Positions 1 through 8,009 of a DNA stretch of 8,009 nucleotides are shown here, one piece after another. Position 1 is the first letter of the stretch, and each line of letters begins with the position of its first letter. The stretch is from the NCBI GenBank assembly GCA_001919995.1, contig MNIY01000096.1, positions 1 through 8,009 on the forward strand. The letters are read 5' to 3'. Below the pieces are notes generated by a model that worked only from the letters and a program-made list of their open reading frames with translations, was not told the DNA's origin and searched no databases. Made by a program: the position numbers and the translations under genes. The stretch is from Ktedonobacter sp. 13_1_20CM_4_53_11 (GTDB lineage: Bacteria > Chloroflexota > Ktedonobacteria > Ktedonobacterales > Ktedonobacteraceae).

Positions 1-1257
1 CAAGGGCTCATGCGTAGGTACCACCTCTACTGCATTGACGAGCATGCGGAAGCGATTACCCATATCCATAACCGCAGCATTGACGGCCGGCCCAGGCCTG
101 GCATCAAACACCAGCCGCACTGGGTCCGCCTTGCCTCCAATGGAGAGCGGGTGAATTTCGAGCGATGGCTTCTGCTCGGTGATGGTGGGACACACCTCCA
201 GCATGTGGGCCCCAAGCCCCATCATGTCGTTCTGGCTCAGATGATAGGTGTAGTCTTCCATGAAGGACATCCCACCATCCAGATCGGCTCCCATCACCTT
301 CATCGCGCGCACCAGTGCAGCAGTCTTCCAGTCTCCCTCTCCGCCAAAGCCATAGTTATCCGCCATCAATCGCTGGACCGAGAGACCAGGGAGTTGTGCG
401 AGGCCGTGCAGATCCTCGAAGGTGGTGGTGAAGCCTTTGAAATTGCCCTCTTCGAGAAAATGCCTCAACCCGGCCTCAATGCGGGCGCCATCACGCAGGG
501 ACTGGTACTGACTGCCATCGCGGCGCAGAGATGGCGCCACGTCATATAGTTCGTTGTATTCCTTCACCAGCTGATCTATCTCGCTATCCGGCACCTGGTT
601 CACGTATTGGACGAGATCGCCTACGCCGTAGCCGGAGACATCATATCCCAACCGGATCTGGGCTTCCACCTTATCCCCTTCCGTGACAGCCACTTCGCGC
701 ATATTGTCGCCGAAGCGGGCGATCTTCGCCCCTTGAGCATCGTACCAGGCACAGGCAGCGCGCGTCCACGTTCCCAGGCTGGCCTGGACATCTTCATCTT
801 GCCAGTGCCCTACGATAACCTTTCGGTTCAGGCGCATCCGGCTGCCGATGAACCCGAATTCGCGGTCTCCGTGGGCGGACTGGTTCAGATTCATGAAGTC
901 CATGTCGATTTCCGACCACGGTATGTCGCGATTGTATTGCGTGTGCAGGTGCGCGAACGGCTTCTGCAGAGCCGTTAATCCGCCGATCCACATTTTGGCC
1001 GGGGAGAAGGTATGCATCCAGGTGATCAGGCCAACGCAGTTTCTGGCAGAGTTGGCTTCCAGGCACAACTCGCGAATCGCTTCAGGAGTTGTCAGGACCG
1101 GCTTAAAGACGAGGTTGACCGGGATTTTATCTGAGTGGGAAAGCGCCTGCGCGATCTCTTTGGAATGTTCGGCTACTTTCTCAATAGTCTCGGGGCCGTA
1201 CAGATGTTGACTTCCGGTGACGAACCAGACGTCGAACTGTTTGAGGTCGATCATCAT
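1..1257 (-). CDS. araA: L-arabinose isomerase AraA (3' end outside window)
   Basis: Cytoplasmic enzyme that converts L-arabinose to L-ribulose, the first step of the isomerase route. The reverse strand is open from an ATG at 1257 to the window edge, giving 419 codons of a family usually near 500, so about 80 C-terminal residues are missing. The protein starts [20 protein letters not shown] and keeps family blocks such as [14 protein letters not shown] (about 82-95), [12 protein letters not shown] (119-130) and [16 protein letters not shown]. The metal/catalytic residues known from E. coli (E306, E333, H350) correspond to E307 in [10 protein letters not shown]334 in SFMEDYTYH and H351 in HMLEVCP; the fourth, H450, lies beyond the edge. 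Two ATGs stand in tandem (1257 and 1254), and only a weak purine-rich site (AAAGAGAAA) precedes them. It is last in the visible araB-araD-araA order, 37 nt after araD, so probably the same transcript. Confidence 0.97.
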
Positions 1258-1294: not shown

Positions 1295-1939
1295 CTATCT
1301 CTGGCCGTATACATGCATGTAGCGGTGGTGCAGCTTGGCCACGTCTTCCGGGGCGATTTCGTCAGGCTGGCCAAGTTGCAGAGCAAGCCACACCGCACGT
1401 GCCACGTCTTCCACCATCACCGCCGCCTTGACAGCCGCCCGGGCTGTGGGGCCGACGGTGAAGACGCCGTGATTCTTCAAGAGTACCGCCTGAGATGTGC
1501 CGATGTGCTCGACCACCTGCCTGCCGATTTCCTCACCGCCGATCAAGGCGAAACCCGCACAGGGAATCGGACCGCCAAATTCGTCAGCAATAGCCGTGAG
1601 GTAGACGGGTATCGAGCGGCCGAGGGCGGCAAAGGCGGTAGCGTAAGAGGAGTGGGTGTGGACCACGCCATTGACATCGGGACGATGCCGGTAGACGTAG
1701 AGGTGGCTGGCTGTGTCTGAAGAGGGCTTGAGTTCTCCCTCAACGATATCGCCTTCCAGGTTCACCACTACGTGATCCTCTGGTCGCAGCTCGTCGTAGA
1801 GCACGCCGCTGGGCTTGATCACCACCAACCCACTCTCTGGATCCCTGGCACTGACATTGCCACCCGTCCAGACCACCAGACCGTTCTTAGGCAATTCCAG
1901 GTGCAGTTTCCAGACCTGTTCTTTGAGCTGGTCGAGCAT
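1295..1939 (-). CDS. araD: L-ribulose-5-phosphate 4-epimerase AraD
   Basis: Interconverts L-ribulose 5-phosphate and D-xylulose 5-phosphate and so delivers arabinose carbon to the pentose phosphate pathway. It is a class II aldolase/epimerase of 214 aa (E. coli AraD has 231). Visible family motifs are GGNVSARD (26-33), IKPSGV (41-46), SSDT (73-76), VVHTHSS (92-98) and KNHG (155-158). By comparison with E. coli, the zinc ligands are probably H94, H96 and H157 with D75 nearby. D119 (in TAIADEFGG) and Y211 in the terminal VYGQR match the catalytic Asp and Tyr. I chose the ATG at 1939 because the TGA of araB runs directly into GGAG, 7 nt ahead of it; a TTG five codons upstream overlaps that ribosome-binding site. 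The 11-nt gap to araB implies co-transcription and probably translational coupling. The substrate is assigned from the motifs plus the araB/araA neighbours, since related fuculose- and ulose-phosphate enzymes share this fold. Confidence 0.94.
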   Translation of the reverse strand: MLDQLKEQVWKLHLELPKNGLVVWTGGNVSARDPESGLVVIKPSGVLYDELRPEDHVVVNLEGDIVEGELKPSSDTASHLYVYRHRPDVNGVVHTHSSYATAFAALGRSIPVYLTAIADEFGGPIPCAGFALIGGEEIGRQVVEHIGTSQAVLLKNHGVFTVGPTARAAVKAAVMVEDVARAVWLALQLGQPDEIAPEDVAKLHHRYMHVYGQR

Positions 1940-1950
1940 GTTGTTTCTCC

Positions 1951-3651
1951 TCAATGCGGATCCGCCAGGATCTCTTCTCTAATACGCTTAAGGCGCTTCA
2001 TCACGTCATTAGCACCGCGCCCGAAGTAGTCGTACAGGGTGACGTACTCTCGATACAACCGGTCGTATGCTTCCTGGTTATGGGGAATCGGGTTGAACGC
2101 CTCCTCGCGCAGTCGGGCCATGTGCCTGGAGGCTTCGAAGATGGAATCGTAGCCGCCGGCCTCCTTGCCAGCCGCCACGGTGGCGTGCATGGCCGAGCCA
2201 ACCGCGCCCCCCTGGCTTGTCCCCGTCTGACGGATGGGCCGGCCGGTGACGTCGGCGTAAATCTGCATCAGCAACTTGTTGCGCTCCGGCAGCCCGCCCG
2301 CGGCCACGATCTCCTTGACCGGTATGCCGTTGGCCTCGAAGTCATCGATGATGATGCGCGTCCCATAGGCGGTGGACTCGATCAAGGCTCGGTAGATTTC
2401 CTCTGGCCTGGTGGCCAGCGTCAGGCCCAACAGCAAGCCGGTCAGGTCGATATCCACCAGGATAGAGCGGTTGCCATTCCACCAGTCGAGAGCCAGCAGA
2501 CCGCTCTCACCCGGCTTTAAGAGTGCCGCCTTTTCCTCCAGGAACTGGTGGATGTTCAGGCCGCGGGCTTCGGCCTGAAGTGTATAGGTAGCAGGCACAC
2601 ACTGCTCCACAAACCACGCGAAGCTGTCGCCCACGCACGATTGTCCGGCTTCATACCCCGAGAAGCCGGGAATGATGCCGTCCTGGACCACGCCGCAGAT
2701 GCCCGGGACCTCGCGCTCCTCCTTGCCCAGCGCCATATGGCAGTTGGAGGTACCCATGATGATCACCATCTGCCCCGGTTCGAGGACTGTGGCTGCTGGA
2801 ACGGTGACGTGGGCATCCACATTGGCCACAGCCACGGGTGTGCCCTGGTTCAACCCTGTCCAGCGCGCTGCCTCCTCGGTTAGACCACCAGCCTTCGATC
2901 CCAGCGGGTAGAGCGTGCGAGACATCTTCTCGTCGACGATGCGCTCCATGCGCGGATCTAGCGCTTTGAAAAACTCGTTGGGGGGGAAGCCGTCGTGCTT
3001 CGACCAGATGGCCTTGTAGCCCGCCGTGCACTCGTTGCGCTTCTCCACGCCTGTGAGCTGCCACACGACCCAGTCTGCCGCCTCAATCAGCCGATCTGCG
3101 GCGGCATAGACCGCTGGTGCCTCGTTCAGGATCTGCCACGCCTTTGGAAAGAACCATTCAGAACTGATCTTGCCACCGTAGCGGTCCAGGAAGGTGTATC
3201 CCAGCTCGCGGGCGATCTGATTCAGCTTGTTGGCTTCAGGCTGCGCGGCGTGGTGCTTCCACAATTTGACCCAGGCGTGCGGTTTGTTCCGCCATTCGGG
3301 CAAAAAACAGAGCGGCGTGCCGTCCGCCAACGTTGGGAGCATGGTACAAGCTGTGAAGTCAATGCCGATGCCAATCACGTCATCCGGCTTCACGCCGCTG
3401 TCGGCCAGTACCGCCGGAATAGTCGTCTTGAACACTTCCAGATAATCATTGGGGTCTTGCAGCGCCCAATCAGGCTCCAGGGCAATCGTGGTGCCGGGCA
3501 GGGTCTTGTCGATGACGCCATTCGCGTACAGATGCACGCTGCTGGCCAGCTCGCGTCCTGTGGTGACATCCACCAGCACCGCGCGACCGGACTCCGTGCC
3601 GAAATCGATGCCGACTGCATATTTCGAGGTTGCCCGAGGCGACGTGTTCAT
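1951..3651 (-). CDS. araB: L-ribulokinase AraB (FGGY kinase)
   Basis: ATP-dependent phosphorylation of L-ribulose to L-ribulose 5-phosphate in the cytoplasm. The protein has 566 aa, the same as E. coli AraB. The N-terminal phosphate-binding loop is [12 protein letters not shown] (13-24). The probable catalytic Asp is D279 in [18 protein letters not shown] (297-303) and DWWNGNR (389-395) are typical of ribulokinases, and the second FGGY signature starts at GGLPERNK (452-459). The ATG at 3651 is chosen over an in-frame upstream extension to 3738 because it is preceded by AAAGGAGG with 9-nt spacing and because homologous kinases begin just before the phosphate loop. It is the first gene of the araB-araD-araA transcript, behind a long leader with the operator described separately. 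A 13-codon reading frame ends 19 nt before the start. Confidence 0.96.
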
Positions 3652-3660
3652 GAACGCCTT

Positions 3661-3668
3661 CCTCCTTT
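3661..3668 (-). promoter_or_regulatory. Shine-Dalgarno of araB
   Basis: On the minus strand this reads AAAGGAGG, 9 nt before the ATG at 3651. It decides the araB start against the open in-frame extension reaching 3738, and it lies in the short gap after the stop of the small upstream reading frame. Confidence 0.85.
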
Positions 3669-3670
3669 CA

Positions 3671-3712
3671 CTAGCCACAAGCGAGGCCTGACCGAGACGT
3701 GGCGTAGTGCAT
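3671..3712 (-). CDS. Possible 13-aa leader peptide upstream of araB
   Basis: An ATG at 3712 opens a 13-codon frame ([16 protein letters not shown] stop) that ends 19 nt before araB. It is preceded by AAGGAGG at 3721-3727 with 8-nt spacing, a ribosome-binding site as good as that of araB itself. Its frame differs from araB. An SD and ATG this well matched could let ribosomes load here and re-initiate at araB, or tune araB translation. There is no run of regulatory codons and no obvious terminator/antiterminator, so classic attenuation is not indicated. I know of no named family for this peptide, and the frame is short enough that it may be fortuitous. Confidence 0.4.
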
Positions 3713-3854
3713 TTCAAGTCCCTCCTTAATATCTCCATAATCAGGGAGAGAATTCTAAGGGATCGTCAGAAGATACGTGTATCAGGTATAGGCAAGGAAA
3801 AAGAGCTAGGACAACGTTCTGGCCTTCCAATTAAGGACGATCTTAAAAGTACAT

Positions 3855-3913
3855 ATAGTAGAGCCTGTAAGGAAAGATGGATTAGCGGATAAGCATAATA
3901 TTAACAGTACTAT
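3855..3913 (-). promoter_or_regulatory. Leader stem-loop in araBDA mRNA
   Basis: Just after the operator, the transcribed strand has ATAGTA-CTGTTAA and, about 30 nt later, TTACAG-GCTC-TACTAT. The two halves can pair as a stem of about 12 bp with one bulged T and a 4-nt one-sided bulge. It would start roughly 10 nt from the inferred 5' end. The same arms occur in the abfA-side copy, where the bulged T is absent. No U-tract follows, so it is not a terminator. A role in mRNA stability or regulation is only inferred. Confidence 0.4.
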
Positions 3914-3927
3914 TTACAACGTTGTAA
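3914..3927. promoter_or_regulatory. LacI-family operator, araB promoter
   Basis: Perfect 14-bp palindrome TTACAACGTTGTAA with a central CG step, typical of LacI-family operators in which the hinge helices insert at the centre. It lies 2 nt downstream of the -10 box and covers the expected transcription start near 3923, so binding should block RNA polymerase. The identical 14-mer sits at the abfA promoter, and the gene between them encodes a LacI-family protein, which is the natural candidate ligand. Confidence 0.85.
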
Positions 3928-3929
3928 GG

Positions 3930-3959
3930 AGTATAGCATCGAAATCTCGCATTTGTCAA
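3930..3959 (-). promoter_or_regulatory. Promoter of araBDA
   Basis: On the minus strand there is a consensus TTGACA -35 box (3954-3959), an 18-bp spacer and a TATACT -10 box (3930-3935). Transcription would start near 3923, inside the operator, giving a leader of about 270 nt to the araB ATG. A near-identical arrangement drives abfA. It looks like a housekeeping-sigma promoter repressed by the LacI-type regulator. Confidence 0.85.
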
Positions 3960-4006
3960 TATAATAGTTGTGCTTATAGTGGATTTCTAAGTAAATTCTA
4001 AGAAAT

Positions 4007-4927
4007 TTAATTTATCTCCTCTTCAATTCTAGTCAAACCTCCAGTGCGCTCGCGAACAATGAGGCGGAAGGGCACCTCAACCCGGTCGGGTTGGCTAGTA
4101 CGCGTACCATCAATGCGCCCAAGGAGGAATGATACAGCCAGTTCGCCGATCATCTCCTTGTCTGGCGCAATGGTGGTCAACGAGGGAATCGCAAAGCGAG
4201 CCTCTTCAATATCGTCGAAACCGATCACGGCCACGTCATCAGGAATTCGGCGTCCGGCCTCGTGAAGTGCGCGCATCGCACCGAGCGCTAAGAGATCGTT
4301 GAAACAGAAGACAGCATCGGGAGGGTGATCCAGGGCTAACAACTGCTGCATCGCTCTTGCCCCATTAAGTCGACTGTAGGATTCAACCTGAATGATGAAC
4401 TGTGCATCCAGGGGCAGACCAGCCTCAGCTAATGCTTGAGTATAGCCGTGTAGACGACGGAGGCTACCTGCCCCACTCGCTATCGATAGAGCCTCCAGGG
4501 TGCCAATGGCGGCGATGCGACGCCGTCCCAAATGCAGGAGATGGTTCGTAGCAAGACGTGCGGCGGCCACATTGCTGTTGGCCAGGTGATCGTAAGGAAC
4601 ATCGATATCCAGGAGGGGGTCACCCAGGAGTACAAGAGGAGTCTTCAATACAGTATATGACCGAGCGGATGCAGCGGCAATTATTGCATTGCCAAGGTCA
4701 GAAAAGTAAGGATTGCTCAGATCAGGGATGGCAAAAGCAAGCACACCCACATGCCCACTGCGCAGGTAGCGCGCTGGCAGATTTGGTTGATAATTCAATT
4801 CCTCCAAAGCCGTGTGTACTCGTTTACGCACTTCTTCCGTCACATGAACATAGTCATGAACGACATTGGAGACCGTCTTGATTGAGACACCAGCCCTCTG
4901 AGCTACATCTTTCAGTGTTGCAGTCAC
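4007..4927 (-). CDS. LacI-family regulator of arabinose genes, shortened
   Basis: DNA-binding repressor presumed to control araBDA and the abfA operon, with arabinose or a derivative as likely inducer (inferred from context). It has 306 aa. The N-terminal helix-turn-helix is TLKDVAQRAGVSIKTVSNVV (4-23), followed by the hinge region NLPARYLRSG (49-58). The periplasmic-binding-protein-like domain shows VGVLAFAIPDLSNPYF (60-75), HLGRRRIAAIG (132-142), FCFNDLLALGAMRAL (207-221) and VIGFDDIEEA (234-243). LacI proteins usually have about 330-345 aa. Here YTVL (91-94) runs straight into KTPLVLLGD (95-103), and the expected 40-45 residues (the helix and strand carrying the VDGI-type block) are absent without loss of frame. 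The start is a GTG at 4927 with AAGGA 11 nt upstream; I see no upstream ATG in frame. The stop codon almost abuts the araB-side promoter repeat and no terminator separates them, so readthrough into araBDA is possible. Confidence 0.93.
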   Translation of the reverse strand: MTATLKDVAQRAGVSIKTVSNVVHDYVHVTEEVRKRVHTALEELNYQPNLPARYLRSGHVGVLAFAIPDLSNPYFSDLGNAIIAAASARSYTVLKTPLVLLGDPLLDIDVPYDHLANSNVAAARLATNHLLHLGRRRIAAIGTLEALSIASGAGSLRRLHGYTQALAEAGLPLDAQFIIQVESYSRLNGARAMQQLLALDHPPDAVFCFNDLLALGAMRALHEAGRRIPDDVAVIGFDDIEEARFAIPSLTTIAPDKEMIGELAVSFLLGRIDGTRTSQPDRVEVPFRLIVRERTGGLTRIEEEIN

Positions 4928-5022
4928 GTGTGTTTCTGTCCTTCTTCGGGGGTCGCAAGTAATTCAAACCTGGAGCGATCCTGGCACTTTTTGCCGGAAA
5001 ATCACTTAAACTTTTGATAAAG
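4928..5022 (-). other. 5' leader of the regulator gene
   Basis: About 90 nt between the predicted start near 5016 and the GTG. It contains the AAGGA site (4939-4943) and a short GGCA/TGCC stem (4983-4995). There is no copy of the TTACAACGTTGTAA palindrome, so direct autorepression by the same site is not supported. I see no gene here. Confidence 0.5.
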
Positions 5023-5052
5023 AGAATACTACTTTGAAAAGTTATTTGTCAA
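5023..5052 (-). promoter_or_regulatory. Promoter of the regulator gene
   Basis: Minus strand: TTGACA (5047-5052), an 18-bp spacer and TATTCT (5023-5028). The start would be near 5016. A 7-bp inverted repeat, AACTTTT/AAAAGTT (5009-5015 and 5037-5043), brackets the -10 box and could be a binding site, but such short AT-rich arms may be chance. The spacing equals that of the two repressed promoters, but the surrounding sequence is unrelated to them. Confidence 0.65.
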
Positions 5053-5140
5053 TGCACTCTTTCCTCAAGGAGATTAGGTACTCACAGACTGGCCTCCTCA
5101 CATCGTGATTCCAAAAAGTGTAGAGATAAAGTCGAATGAT
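5053..5140. other. Spacer between regulator promoter and abfA-side repeat
   Basis: An 88-bp stretch between the divergent promoters. I see no reading frame, no operator-like palindrome and no terminator with a U-tract. Confidence 0.5.
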
Positions 5141-5186
5141 TTTCTTAGAATTTGCTTAGAAATCCACTATAAACACAACTATTACA

Positions 5187-5216
5187 TTGACAGATGCGAA
5201 ATATCTATGTTACAAT
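5187..5216 (+). promoter_or_regulatory. Promoter of abfA and the sugar transporter
   Basis: TTGACA (5187-5192), an 18-bp spacer and TACAAT (5211-5216). The start would be near 5223, inside the operator, and the leader to the TTG of abfA is about 290 nt. It is the counterpart of the araBDA promoter and is expected to share its repressor. Confidence 0.85.
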
Positions 5217-5217
5217 A

Positions 5218-5231
5218 TTACAACGTTGTAA
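5218..5231. promoter_or_regulatory. LacI-family operator, abfA promoter
   Basis: The same perfect palindrome TTACAACGTTGTAA as at 3914-3927, here 1 nt after the -10 box. The two operator centres are about 1.3 kb apart with the regulator gene between them, so one repressor can coordinate both divergent transcription units. Confidence 0.85.
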
Positions 5232-5289
5232 ATAGTACTGTAATATTATGCTTATGAGCTAATCCATCTTTCCTTACAGACTCTACTAT
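5232..5289 (+). promoter_or_regulatory. Leader stem-loop in abfA mRNA
   Basis: ATAGTA-CTGTAA (5232-5243) can pair with TTACAG (5274-5279) and TACTAT (5284-5289). This gives two 6-bp helices separated by a one-sided ACTC bulge, capped by a 30-nt loop. It begins about 10 nt from the inferred 5' end. The araB-side copy has the same arms apart from one extra T. No U-run follows. The function is unknown; 5'-end protection of the mRNA is one possibility. Confidence 0.42.
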
Positions 5290-5314
5290 ATATACTCTTG
5301 AGATTGCTCTTAAT

Positions 5315-5515
5315 AGTGTATTCATCAGTTTCAAGGCACGTTAGTACGTAGTGCGATCCATGGTTTGTGACGACGTCACCCCAAACCAAAGGATGACGAG
5401 GCGCATTCCAATCGGCCATAGCATGAGCCACGGCTTGAGGAACCCCTTCCCAGGTCTCAAATCGTCGTCTATTGAGGAGAGTGCGGATTTATCCAGCATG
5501 TAGAGGGACTTACTA
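5315..5515 (+). other. Distal part of the abfA leader
   Basis: About 200 nt without a convincing gene on the plus strand. It contains a GC-richer hairpin (GGTTT-GTGAC, loop GAC, GTCAC-CCC-AAACC, 5362-5387), not followed by Ts. A 47-codon open frame (ATG 5360 to TAG 5501-5503) lacks a ribosome-binding site. The minus strand here resembles a transposase tail (separate entry). AGAGGG at 5502-5507 is the ribosome-binding site of abfA, 8 nt before its TTG. Confidence 0.5.
5378..5488 (-). pseudogene. Possible remnant of a transposase C-terminus
   Basis: One minus-strand frame reads, over 37 codons, a stretch including LLNRRRFETWEGV followed by DWNAPRHPLVWG. This recalls the C-terminal end (RRxFETWEx...YWNxHRHPFxWG) of some IS630-like transposases as I remember them. 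Upstream it is cut by stops (TAA, TAA, TAG between about 5489 and 5515), and downstream it runs meaninglessly into the promoter repeat. There is no start codon, no remaining transposase body and no terminal inverted repeat that I can see. If real, it is a fossil of an insertion upstream of abfA. The match is from memory and short, so it may be coincidental. Confidence 0.35.
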
Positions 5516-7039
5516 TTGGCTAAGATCAAGATTGACCCTGAGCGCAGGATAGGTAGCGTTGATCGCCGGATCTTCGGCGGGTTCATCGAGCACCTCGGGC
5601 GCTGCATCTATGGCGGTGTGTTCGAGGAGGGCTCAAGCCTGAGCGATTCGCATGGGTTCCGAAGTGATGTCTTGGATGCAGCGCGGACGTTGCGGATACC
5701 GGTATTACGCTGGCCGGGTGGTAATTTTGTGAGTGGCTATCACTGGACGGATGGTGTGGGGCCTGTGGAACAGCGTCCCCGTCGCATGGACCTTGCCTGG
5801 CACACAGAGGAGTCCAACCGATTCGGAACCGACGAATTCATCGAGTACTGTCGGTCCCTCGGCACAGAGCCGTATATCTGCGTCAATATGGGAACCGGCA
5901 CAATGGATGAGGCTCAGGCGTGGGTTGAGTACTGCAACGGCACAGGGGACACCTATTGGGCAAACCTGCGCCGCCGCTATGGTCACGAGGAGCCCTACAA
6001 GGTGAAATACTGGGGACTCGGCAACGAGATGTACGGGAGGTGGCAGATCGGGGCCCTGAGCGCAGAGGATTACGCCAAAAAGGCGATTGAGTTCGCCAAG
6101 GTAATGAAATGGACGGATCCGAGTATACAGCTGGTAGGCTGTGGCGAGAACGGCTGGAGCGAGTGGGACCGGATAGTTCTCGAGGAACTGTCCCCGTTTG
6201 TCGACTACCACAGTCTCCACATCTACACGGGAAGCAACGACTACTACAGAAACGTCTTCATGCCGCATCAAGCCGAGCGTGCCCTGAACATCTGCCAGGC
6301 GATGATCGACAGCGTGCGGTACCGGAAGGGTATTGATCACCCAATATACGTGGCCTACGATGAGTGGAATGTCTGGTTCCGGGAGCGGGGTACTGAGTCA
6401 GGTCTGGAGGAGCGTTATACGCTGGCAGACGCGCTGGCGATTGCCACATTTCTCAACATCTTCATCCGCCACGGCCAGACGGTGCGGATAGCCAACCTGG
6501 CCCAGCTGGTGAACGTCATCGCCCCTATATTCACGAACCGTGAAGGTTTGTTCCTGCAAAGCATTTACCACCCTCTGAGGCTGTATGCCGAACATCTACA
6601 GGAGGTCGCGCTGGACATCTCCGTCGACTCGGACACCTATGACTTGAGAGAGGATGAGGAGGTCGCTTCAGTGCCTCATAGCGTGACGGATGTGGCGGCG
6701 CCCAGGCCCTATCGCGTGGCAGACCTGGGTCCGTTCAAGCTGCTTGACGTGACCGCGACCTGCGATGCACATGGACACGAACTCATGGTAGCAGTGGTGA
6801 ACCGCGATCGCGAACGCGATCTCGCGACCACGATTGAACTGGTAGATGCGGTCGCCACGAGCGGTATCGTAGCCTACGAGGTGAATGGTGGCGATCCGAG
6901 CGTGGTCAACTCATTCGAGCACCCTCAGTCAGTAGATGTGCGGGAGTCGCGCATGGATGTAGATAGAGAGCGTTTAGACTGTTTCGAGTACACGTTCCCG
7001 GCTCACTCGGTCACAATATTGCGGATGCAAGTTGGATGA
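5516..7039 (+). CDS. abfA: Intracellular alpha-L-arabinofuranosidase, GH51
   Basis: Retaining glycosidase that removes terminal alpha-L-arabinofuranosyl residues from arabino-oligosaccharides, feeding L-arabinose to AraA. It has 507 aa, the usual length for the family (about 500). It begins AKIKIDPERRIGSVDRRIFG, followed by GGFIEHLGRCIYGG (21-34) and RWPGGNFVSGYHW (65-77). The acid/base glutamate is E171 in WGLGNEMYGRW, and the nucleophile is E283 in YDEWNVWF. The TIM barrel is followed by a C-terminal beta domain from roughly residue 370. No signal peptide or membrane segment is seen, so it should act in the cytoplasm on imported oligosaccharides. The start is a TTG at 5516: an in-frame TAG lies at 5501-5503, AGAGGG stands 8 nt upstream, and the family N-terminus begins exactly here. 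The ABC binding protein follows after 46 nt, probably in the same transcript. Confidence 0.96.
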   Translation: MAKIKIDPERRIGSVDRRIFGGFIEHLGRCIYGGVFEEGSSLSDSHGFRSDVLDAARTLRIPVLRWPGGNFVSGYHWTDGVGPVEQRPRRMDLAWHTEESNRFGTDEFIEYCRSLGTEPYICVNMGTGTMDEAQAWVEYCNGTGDTYWANLRRRYGHEEPYKVKYWGLGNEMYGRWQIGALSAEDYAKKAIEFAKVMKWTDPSIQLVGCGENGWSEWDRIVLEELSPFVDYHSLHIYTGSNDYYRNVFMPHQAERALNICQAMIDSVRYRKGIDHPIYVAYDEWNVWFRERGTESGLEERYTLADALAIATFLNIFIRHGQTVRIANLAQLVNVIAPIFTNREGLFLQSIYHPLRLYAEHLQEVALDISVDSDTYDLREDEEVASVPHSVTDVAAPRPYRVADLGPFKLLDVTATCDAHGHELMVAVVNRDRERDLATTIELVDAVATSGIVAYEVNGGDPSVVNSFEHPQSVDVRESRMDVDRERLDCFEYTFPAHSVTILRMQVG

Positions 7040-7073
7040 TTGGGGACAGCGCACCAGGTGGGTTTCAGAACGC

Positions 7074-7079
7074 AGGAGG
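7074..7079 (+). promoter_or_regulatory. Shine-Dalgarno of the binding-protein gene
   Basis: AGGAGG 6 nt before the ATG at 7086. It fixes the start of the binding protein and supports translation from the abfA transcript; I see no promoter or terminator in the 46-nt gap. Confidence 0.85.
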
Positions 7080-7085
7080 CAAGAA

Positions 7086-8009
7086 ATGGATTGCGAGGAC
7101 ATTCTGTGTAGAACATCACTTGAGCAACGTATCAGTAGGCGTAAGTTTTTGTGCAATACTGCACTCATAGCTGCTGGCGGTCTGGCTGCTGCGTCGTGTG
7201 CGGCGTATCCCACATCGGGAGCCACCAGTACCGTACCCATGACGTACTGGAACCTCTTCGGTGGAGGCGATGGTGCACGAATGATACAGATGCAAAATGA
7301 CTTCGTACGCAGCCACCCCAACATTGATCTTAAGGCCGTCACGTTGGCCTGGGGAGAACCGTACTACACCAAGTTGGCGATGTCCTCTGCCGGTGGGCGA
7401 CCTCCCGATATCGGGATCTCGCATATCACCCGCATGCCCGCATTTGCTCAACTGGGCTTCCTCGAGCCTTTTGACCTGGACCAGCTGGCTAAGGTTGGCG
7501 TCACTCCGGACAAGTTTCTGCCTGAAGTCTGGCAGCGGGCGCAGTATCAAGGCAAGGTCTATGCCATTCCACTGGATACCCACCCGTTTGTTATGTACTA
7601 CAACATCGATATCTGCAAAAAAGCAGGGCTGCTTGGGCCGGATGGAAATCTGAAGCCGATCCAGGGCACGACGGGGCTCATCGACGCGCTCAAGCAGGTG
7701 AAGCAGGCCACGGGAAACTGGGGCCTAACGTTTATTGGCGCGTGGCGTCTCTTCAATGCCCTTTACGGTCAGCTTGATGGGAAGATCCTGTCTCCAGATG
7801 CGAAAGAAATAGTGCTGGACAATTCCAAGGCGGAACAGGCTCTGTCAATTATGGCCGACCTGACACTGAAGAGCAAGGTTGCCTTCCCCACCACCGACTA
7901 TGGATCTACTGTTGCTCTTTTCGGCAGCGGGAAGGCCGGGTTCTACTGGAATGGGGAGTGGGAAGTAACAACCTTCCAAGCACTCCCGAACTTCCACTTC
8001 AGCATGGTG
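7086..8009 (+). CDS. ABC transporter sugar-binding lipoprotein (3' end outside window)
   Basis: Extracellular solute-binding protein, family 1, which would capture arabinose-containing sugars and hand them to membrane permeases that presumably follow beyond the window. 308 codons are visible of a family of about 420-450. The N-terminus carries a twin-arginine-type motif SRRKFL (17-22), then a hydrophobic stretch and a lipobox-like LAAASC with C38 as the probable lipidated cysteine, so it is likely a Tat-exported lipoprotein. The mature part starts with MTYWNLFGGGDGARMI and contains PPDIGISH, GFLEPFD, YQGKVYAIPLDTHPFVMYYN and AGFYWNGEWE, typical of this fold. The start is the ATG at 7086 behind AGGAGG. 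Position after abfA and under the shared operator suggests arabino-oligosaccharides as ligand; the sequence alone cannot fix the sugar. Confidence 0.92.
   Translation, partial: MDCEDILCRTSLEQRISRRKFLCNTALIAAGGLAAASCAAYPTSGATSTVPMTYWNLFGGGDGARMIQMQNDFVRSHPNIDLKAVTLAWGEPYYTKLAMSSAGGRPPDIGISHITRMPAFAQLGFLEPFDLDQLAKVGVTPDKFLPEVWQRAQYQGKVYAIPLDTHPFVMYYNIDICKKAGLLGPDGNLKPIQGTTGLIDALKQVKQATGNWGLTFIGAWRLFNALYGQLDGKILSPDAKEIVLDNSKAEQALSIMADLTLKSKVAFPTTDYGSTVALFGSGKAGFYWNGEWEVTTFQALPNFHFSMV

Follow-up and report, generated by a model that had tools for sequence, protein, structure and literature searches.

Why does the gene of a LacI-family regulator lie between two inverted, almost identical promoter segments, and what does this arrangement mean for the operons on either side? 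The question is raised by an 8,009-nucleotide stretch of Ktedonobacter sp. 13_1_20CM_4_53_11 (contig MNIY01000096.1), the whole of which was analysed and is referred to here as the window. Its minus strand carries araA, araD, araB and the LacI-family gene, its plus strand abfA, the product of which presumably belongs to GH51, and the gene of a substrate-binding protein (Table 1). It is probable that a promoter-operator segment was copied to the far side of the regulator gene as an inverted duplicate, letting a LacI-type repressor block the promoters of both operons. This explanation builds on the two copies themselves, the anatomy of promoters and operators, the co-occurrence of operator and regulator among relatives, and a divergence between the copies below that of four-fold sites.

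Table 1. Genes, modules and sites of the window, with the evidence for each or its position relative to the gene served
Feature	Position	Strand	Evidence or remark
araA, L-arabinose isomerase; extends beyond the window	1..1257	-	NF002795, E 3e-211; PF02610, PF24856, PF11762
araD, L-ribulose-5-phosphate 4-epimerase	1295..1939	-	NF005123, E 1e-103, above cut-off
araB, L-ribulokinase	1951..3651	-	NF003154 and TIGR01234, both above cut-offs
Module B, promoter-operator-leader, faces araBDA	3830..4005	-	BLAST, inverted-repeat search, column-wise alignment
Predicted operator palindrome TTACAACGTTGTAA of module B	3914..3927	-	262 nt before araB ATG
LacI-family regulator, 306 aa	4007..4927	-	PF00356, E 3e-17; PF13377, E 9e-36; alignments
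Probable regulator promoter TTGACA-18-TATTCT, within the inter-module segment	5023..5052	-	promoter scan
Module A, inverted copy, faces the abfA operon	5141..5314	+	BLAST, inverted-repeat search, column-wise alignment
Predicted operator palindrome TTACAACGTTGTAA of module A	5218..5231	+	284 nt before abfA TTG
Fossil of a transposase C-terminus, inside the abfA leader near module A	5378..5479	-	G009 ORF, 59% over 34 residues, E 9e-12
abfA, alpha-L-arabinofuranosidase, TTG start	5516..7039	+	NF051901, E 5e-134 (448 bits, below the cut-off of 625); PF06964, E 3e-38
Sugar ABC-transporter substrate-binding protein (lipoprotein); runs off the window	7086..8009	+	PF01547, E 7e-19

When the window was compared with itself by BLAST, 3830–4005/5314–5141 was the sole inverted pair (87.5% over 176 columns, E 8e-57), and an inverted-repeat search resolved it into three arms of 74, 72 and 24 nt. 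Column by column, 154 of the 176 positions are identical, with 14 transitions, 6 transversions and 2 one-base gaps; the sequence-only reading of this DNA had estimated some 20 substitutions and two gaps of 1 nt, which is exactly the number counted. Each module reaches 46 bp upstream of its -35 box and continues for 84 bp of leader after the operator (about 45 and about 85 bp had been estimated), and the similarity thus runs across all 176 columns, past the operator and core promoter. The ends are as abrupt as had been claimed: beyond the module edges, ungapped identity drops to chance level, with 17 of 50 bases inward and 14 of 50 outward. On one side, the single base 4006 separates the module edge at 4005 from the stop codon of the regulator (4007–4009, minus strand), again in agreement with the earlier observation. 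A regulator C-terminus cut by this module edge was considered and rejected: the tail LTRIEEEIN is also present in P0003 and resembled in P0002, so that by comparison of these sequences it looks native. The closest relatives of the regulator, the proteins P0001–P0008, are 80–96% identical to it; P0001, at 96%, has a different tail.

Both modules contain a promoter. In module B, the -35 box TTGACA (3959–3954) and the -10 box TATACT (3935–3930) are separated by an 18-nt spacer; in module A, a spacer of the same length lies between TTGACA (5187–5192) and TACAAT (5211–5216). With 11 of 12 matches each, the two rank highest among the promoter-like sites of the region, of which nine were found and 2.4 were expected. 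A perfect, LacI-type palindrome, TTACAACGTTGTAA, follows the -10 box after 2 bases in B and after 1 base in A. Even allowing 3 mismatches, it is present at these two places of the window only (chance expectation 0.14), and two matches at this tolerance were reached by 2 of 200 shuffles of the window. At both target promoters it has the form known of LacI-family operators, an even palindrome with a central CG. The LacI helix-turn-helix PF00356 was matched by residues 4–49 of the regulator (62.6 bits, cut-off 27), in keeping with the N-terminus of this family, and PF13377 by its C-terminal half.

A near-identical genome, G001, matches the window at 98.6% over 4645–7806 and at 99.0% over 4016–4646. 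Its module A is identical to that of the window, and its contig ends at window position 4016, 10 bases short of module B. Relative to that of the 99% identical G001, the regulator of the window has an in-frame gap of 129 bp, or 43 residues, after position 94 in the sensor domain (window about 4645), leaving 306 residues versus 347 in G001 (read to the contig end). Accordingly, a full sensor domain was recognised in G001, where PF00532 covers residues 63–333, but not in the window. At least 40 of the 43 residues are kept in all 120 listed relatives. The loss is either a deletion in the strain or an assembly error; if the deletion is real, control of the regulon in the window's strain may be altered or lost, since these are residues of the sensor.

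The assignment of operator to regulator was followed through the relatives. Of 101 relatives searched, 10 contain the exact TTACAACGTTGTAA 14-mer, and every one of them belongs to the 29 family members of this set; the pattern read backwards was present in none of the 101. A regulator of the group (E 1e-100 or better) is encoded in 11 of the 29 family genomes, and the palindrome is present in 10 of these 11 versus none of the 18 without the regulator (Fisher P 5e-7, uncorrected for relatedness). Because of this co-occurrence across the family, the palindrome is very likely the operator of the regulator, as judged from the sequences. The genome without the exact operator, G006, encodes a regulator relative of 53% identity (C1:785480–786481), and its site may differ.

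Nine operator regions from seven genomes were compared, together with one region of G002. In L114, L117, L119, L120 and L121, which make up five of these nine, a regulator 50–57% identical to that of the window starts at most about 260 bp from the operator, and one lies about 5 kb away in L118; L115 and L116 have distant LacI relatives only (31–32% identical), and no LacI relative was found in the operator region L122. At most of the operator sites compared, the operator is again preceded by a -35 box TTGACA, a spacer and a -10 box. The binding proteins of L114 and L121 are 53–55% identical to that of the window, and the neighbours in L119 are, as in the window, abfA and a binding protein. The regulon is therefore very likely related to arabinose, the inducer being read from the genes only. 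Three Ktedonobacter loci (L010, L011 and L048) carry a pair of operators with a spacing of 20 bp, at most about 150 bp from the regulator. The tandem spacing is exactly 20 bp both there (5828 and 5848) and in L114 (9008 and 9028); each promoter of the window has one operator.

A close counterpart is L119 of G011, in which a related regulator (57% identical) is divergent from abfA and a substrate-binding protein, with TTACAACGTTGTAA between them. Unlike the window, G011 has an operator with promoter only on a single side; araBDA is missing from the 5.8-kb contig, and the module has no DNA match in this genome. No araB relative was found at E 1e-100 in any of the 11 regulator genomes (G001, 76% complete, among them), so that araBDA seems to have joined the regulon later. 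The abfA side is slightly favoured as the older one, because G011 shares the order of regulator, operator and abfA, and because no araB relative was seen at this threshold in the regulator genomes.

On this basis, the window's lineage would have gained an inverted second copy of one promoter-operator segment on the other side of the regulator gene, after which the araBDA and the abfA-transporter operons would start from almost identical promoters. The LacI-family protein, made from its own promoter between the modules, would bind the identical palindrome after each -10 box, and once bound would block both promoters until freed from the operators by arabinose or an arabinoside. Binding, repression, inducer, start sites and the order of events, with the segment copied in the locus and not imported as a unit, are what we infer from the observed arrangement. 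The sequence-only reading had proposed a cassette, either duplicated or kept similar by gene conversion, through which one repressor controls two outward-facing operons; with 154 of 176 columns identical and sharp edges, a duplication that lets one LacI-type repressor serve both operons is the best-supported reading.

As in the local sugar regulons of a survey of LacI-type regulators (PMC4052901), an even palindrome with central CG lies on neighbouring catabolic promoters and the regulator is encoded beside its targets. According to this survey, more than 75% of the sites precede the start codon by 30–140 bp, and autoregulation applies to 72% of the regulators. The operators of the window, in contrast, are placed 262 and 284 nt before the genes, and no operator was found at the regulator's own probable promoter (no TTACAACGTTGTAA copy on 5052–5023, minus strand), which makes the locus untypical in both respects. 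A further difference to the regulons described there is that the two target promoters of the window are long inverted copies of each other.

That far more sequence is shared than a LacI operator needs had been taken to call for a special reason. The differences between A and B are spread nearly evenly, with 3 of 46 columns upstream, 0 of 6 in the -35 box, 9 of 26 from the spacer to the operator, 0 of 14 in the operator and 10 of 84 in the leader. The mild excess between the -35 box and the operator (scan P 0.043) was rejected as a sign of selection, being too weak. Selection instead of common ancestry might nevertheless have kept the modules alike if the upstream element and the leader had shared functions, for instance an activator site or an mRNA leader. 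The upstream part with its three differences and the spacer region as the most divergent part are consistent with this, as is a CTTAGAA motif repeated at 11-bp spacing upstream of both -35 boxes (5144–5161 and 3985–4002), which within the window is confined to the two modules and is a possible activator site. The leaders, however, are no more stably folded than shuffled sequences (z 0.51 and -0.56), no base pair has changes on both sides between them (two sequences only), and no Rfam family comes near its gathering score, the sole match being a eukaryotic small RNA (17.5 bits versus 65, at 5033–5223, minus strand). A structured leader or riboswitch was rejected on these grounds. Among the 201 relatives searched, the module leader is present in none except G001. 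Selection as the source of the likeness is thus most improbable, also in view of the weak clustering of differences. The claim of a special reason is not supported: with nearly even differences, an unstructured leader restricted to G001 and the low divergence described below, the extra length is best explained by the youth of the copy, not by a function of all 175 bp. Nearly even differences, with none in the operator, are as expected of a recent duplication in which the operator is under selection.

The age of the copy was judged against G002, the nearest sister genome, of the same genus (87% complete) with amino acid identities to the window of 97% (araA), 97% (araD), 94% (araB) and 90% (abfA). 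Between window and G002, 154 of 803 four-fold sites of these genes differ (JC 0.22; 0.17 to 0.30 by gene), while the distance between modules A and B is JC 0.125. Assuming similar rates at these sites, the segment was copied, or the copies were last homogenised, after window and G002 had split; four-fold sites and AT-rich spacers may evolve at differing rates. Concerted evolution could make an old pair appear young. An old duplication in which conversion between the inverted copies keeps the likeness, and in which the segment 4006–5140 is able to flip silently, is unlikely. Inverted repeats 1.1 kb apart are in principle good recombination substrates, and with the probable regulator promoter inside the flippable segment and both target promoters facing outward, flips would be silent and tolerated. 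Against this reading, the longest identical run between the modules is just 23–24 bases and no flipped arrangement was seen, the sole readable junction of G001 being in the same orientation. That the inverted modules maintain themselves, recombination homogenising the promoters, silently flipping the regulator and keeping the operons matched in strength and operator affinity, is very unlikely; if true, the pair would be a recombinational way to keep a two-operon regulon balanced. An invertible switch is a poor description of the locus, since the target promoters are in the repeats and face outward, and no recombinase is found among the window's six genes.

In G002, 264 bp separate the starts of araB and abfA, and this interval contains no regulator and no module; no regulator of the group was found in G002 or G003 at E 1e-100. 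G002 may once have possessed the regulator and lost it. The untranslated stretch before araB agrees between window and G002 in 39 of 51 columns. The G002 intergenic region was compared with the modules by local alignment under three scorings, with 1000 shuffles each. In the araB direction, the score was reached by 2, 332 and 1 shuffles for the whole of module B and by 16, 19 and 9 for the whole of A; for the part upstream of the -35 box, the numbers were 4, 122 and 1 (B) and 0, 3 and 0 (A). In the abfA direction they were 54, 292 and 36 (whole B), 254, 419 and 181 (whole A) and 798 to 970 (upstream parts). Under two of the three scorings, the G002 region thus resembles the module in the araB direction, which, with several tests made, is no more than suggestive; it also contains TTGACA/TATACT at 18-nt spacing in this direction. 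From this resemblance, which speaks against the abfA side as the older one, a related araB promoter may be older than the regulator's present position.

The module DNA was detected in 2 of 201 relatives (the window's own assembly being outside this set), namely G001 and G009, the latter with a 64-bp stretch of 78% identity that spans promoter and operator and reaches about 15 bp further upstream. A search of plasmids and phages with module B gave no match. An exact 23-mer of operator and leader had no match in viral contigs, and a viral link was rejected for this reason. Many dispersed copies, which would have refuted the sequence-only reading, were thus not found in the 201 relatives, plasmids and phages; further copies may exist in the window's own genome. 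Among 24 loci (the window and 23 others, some duplicates), only in the window is the regulator bracketed by inverted repeats with promoters; flanks of 1.5 kb were scanned for most, L142, L156 and L160 being shortened by contig ends. L010 gave three short inverted hits of 25–31 bp, away from its operators.

Close to module A, the abfA leader contains the remains of a transposase, which we take to be IS630-like. The matched G009 ORF hits Pfam DDE_3 and G009 has 12 DNA matches to the fossil; the 37-residue fossil piece by itself matches no Pfam family. From these similarities, an insertion element probably once lay beside the locus, and it may have contributed to the rearrangement. It is quite unlikely that module, regulator and module arrived between araB and abfA as one transferred or transposed cassette. 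The 1.6-kb excess absent from G002, the fossil near module A and the presence of group regulators in 11 of 29 family genomes, without G002 and G003, would fit such an arrival. The unit, however, contains no transposase (only the LacI gene lies between the modules) and shows no target duplication by eye at its ends, apart from that of G001 no copy was found in the 201 relatives or on plasmids and phages, and G002 does not resemble a clean empty site. A transposon was rejected with the same findings, namely the missing transposase and target-site duplication and the lack of other copies.

Promoter duplication and 'mobile promoters' in prokaryotes have reportedly been described by Matus-Garcia (2012) and van Passel (2014), work cited in PMC9208149 and PMC8049555. 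The definition of a mobile promoter includes dispersed copies at several loci. As with such promoters, homologous promoter-bearing intergenic DNA stands before unrelated genes of one genome, here on the araB and the abfA side. Unlike mobile promoters, the window has a local inverted pair around the controlling regulator, together with its operator. In the 201 relatives, plasmids and phages searched, no dispersed copies were found besides the one copy of G001 and the 64-bp match in G009. Among the matches listed (titles and starts of abstracts, few subscription journals covered), none dealt with a promoter that is duplicated in inverted form on the two sides of its regulator gene, and titles and abstract starts revealed no study of these arabinose regulators in Ktedonobacter relatives. 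A two-operon regulon made by promoter copying is rather an uncommon-looking example than a new kind of system. It would mean that a single step is enough for a local repressor to acquire another operon, since a whole promoter-operator segment is copied and no new operator has to evolve by point mutation, here in a pair young enough for the borders of the copied unit to remain visible. The analysis also predicts the operator and the regulon of a group of arabinose regulators from relatives of Ktedonobacter.

Some smaller features of the locus are added here. About 60 bp before araB (window about 3668–3724) are absent from G002, and CCTCCTT direct repeats flank this stretch. Where the window has the substrate-binding protein, abfA is followed in G002 by a 656-aa ORF (L113, 11441–13411), presumably a GH127-type beta-L-arabinofuranosidase. 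The 15-mer GAGYGCGGATTTRTC (window 5479; G002 C106:9790) is the sole exact match in G001 and in G002; as the pattern was chosen after seeing both, the match carries no weight as evidence. A 15-mer of the GAGTGCGGATTTATC type is located at the edge of the transposase fossil (window 5479–5493), at three places of G012 (C3:73370, C37:287585 and C43:2666) and in the same intergenic region of G002 (C106:9790), and is maybe the end of an element.
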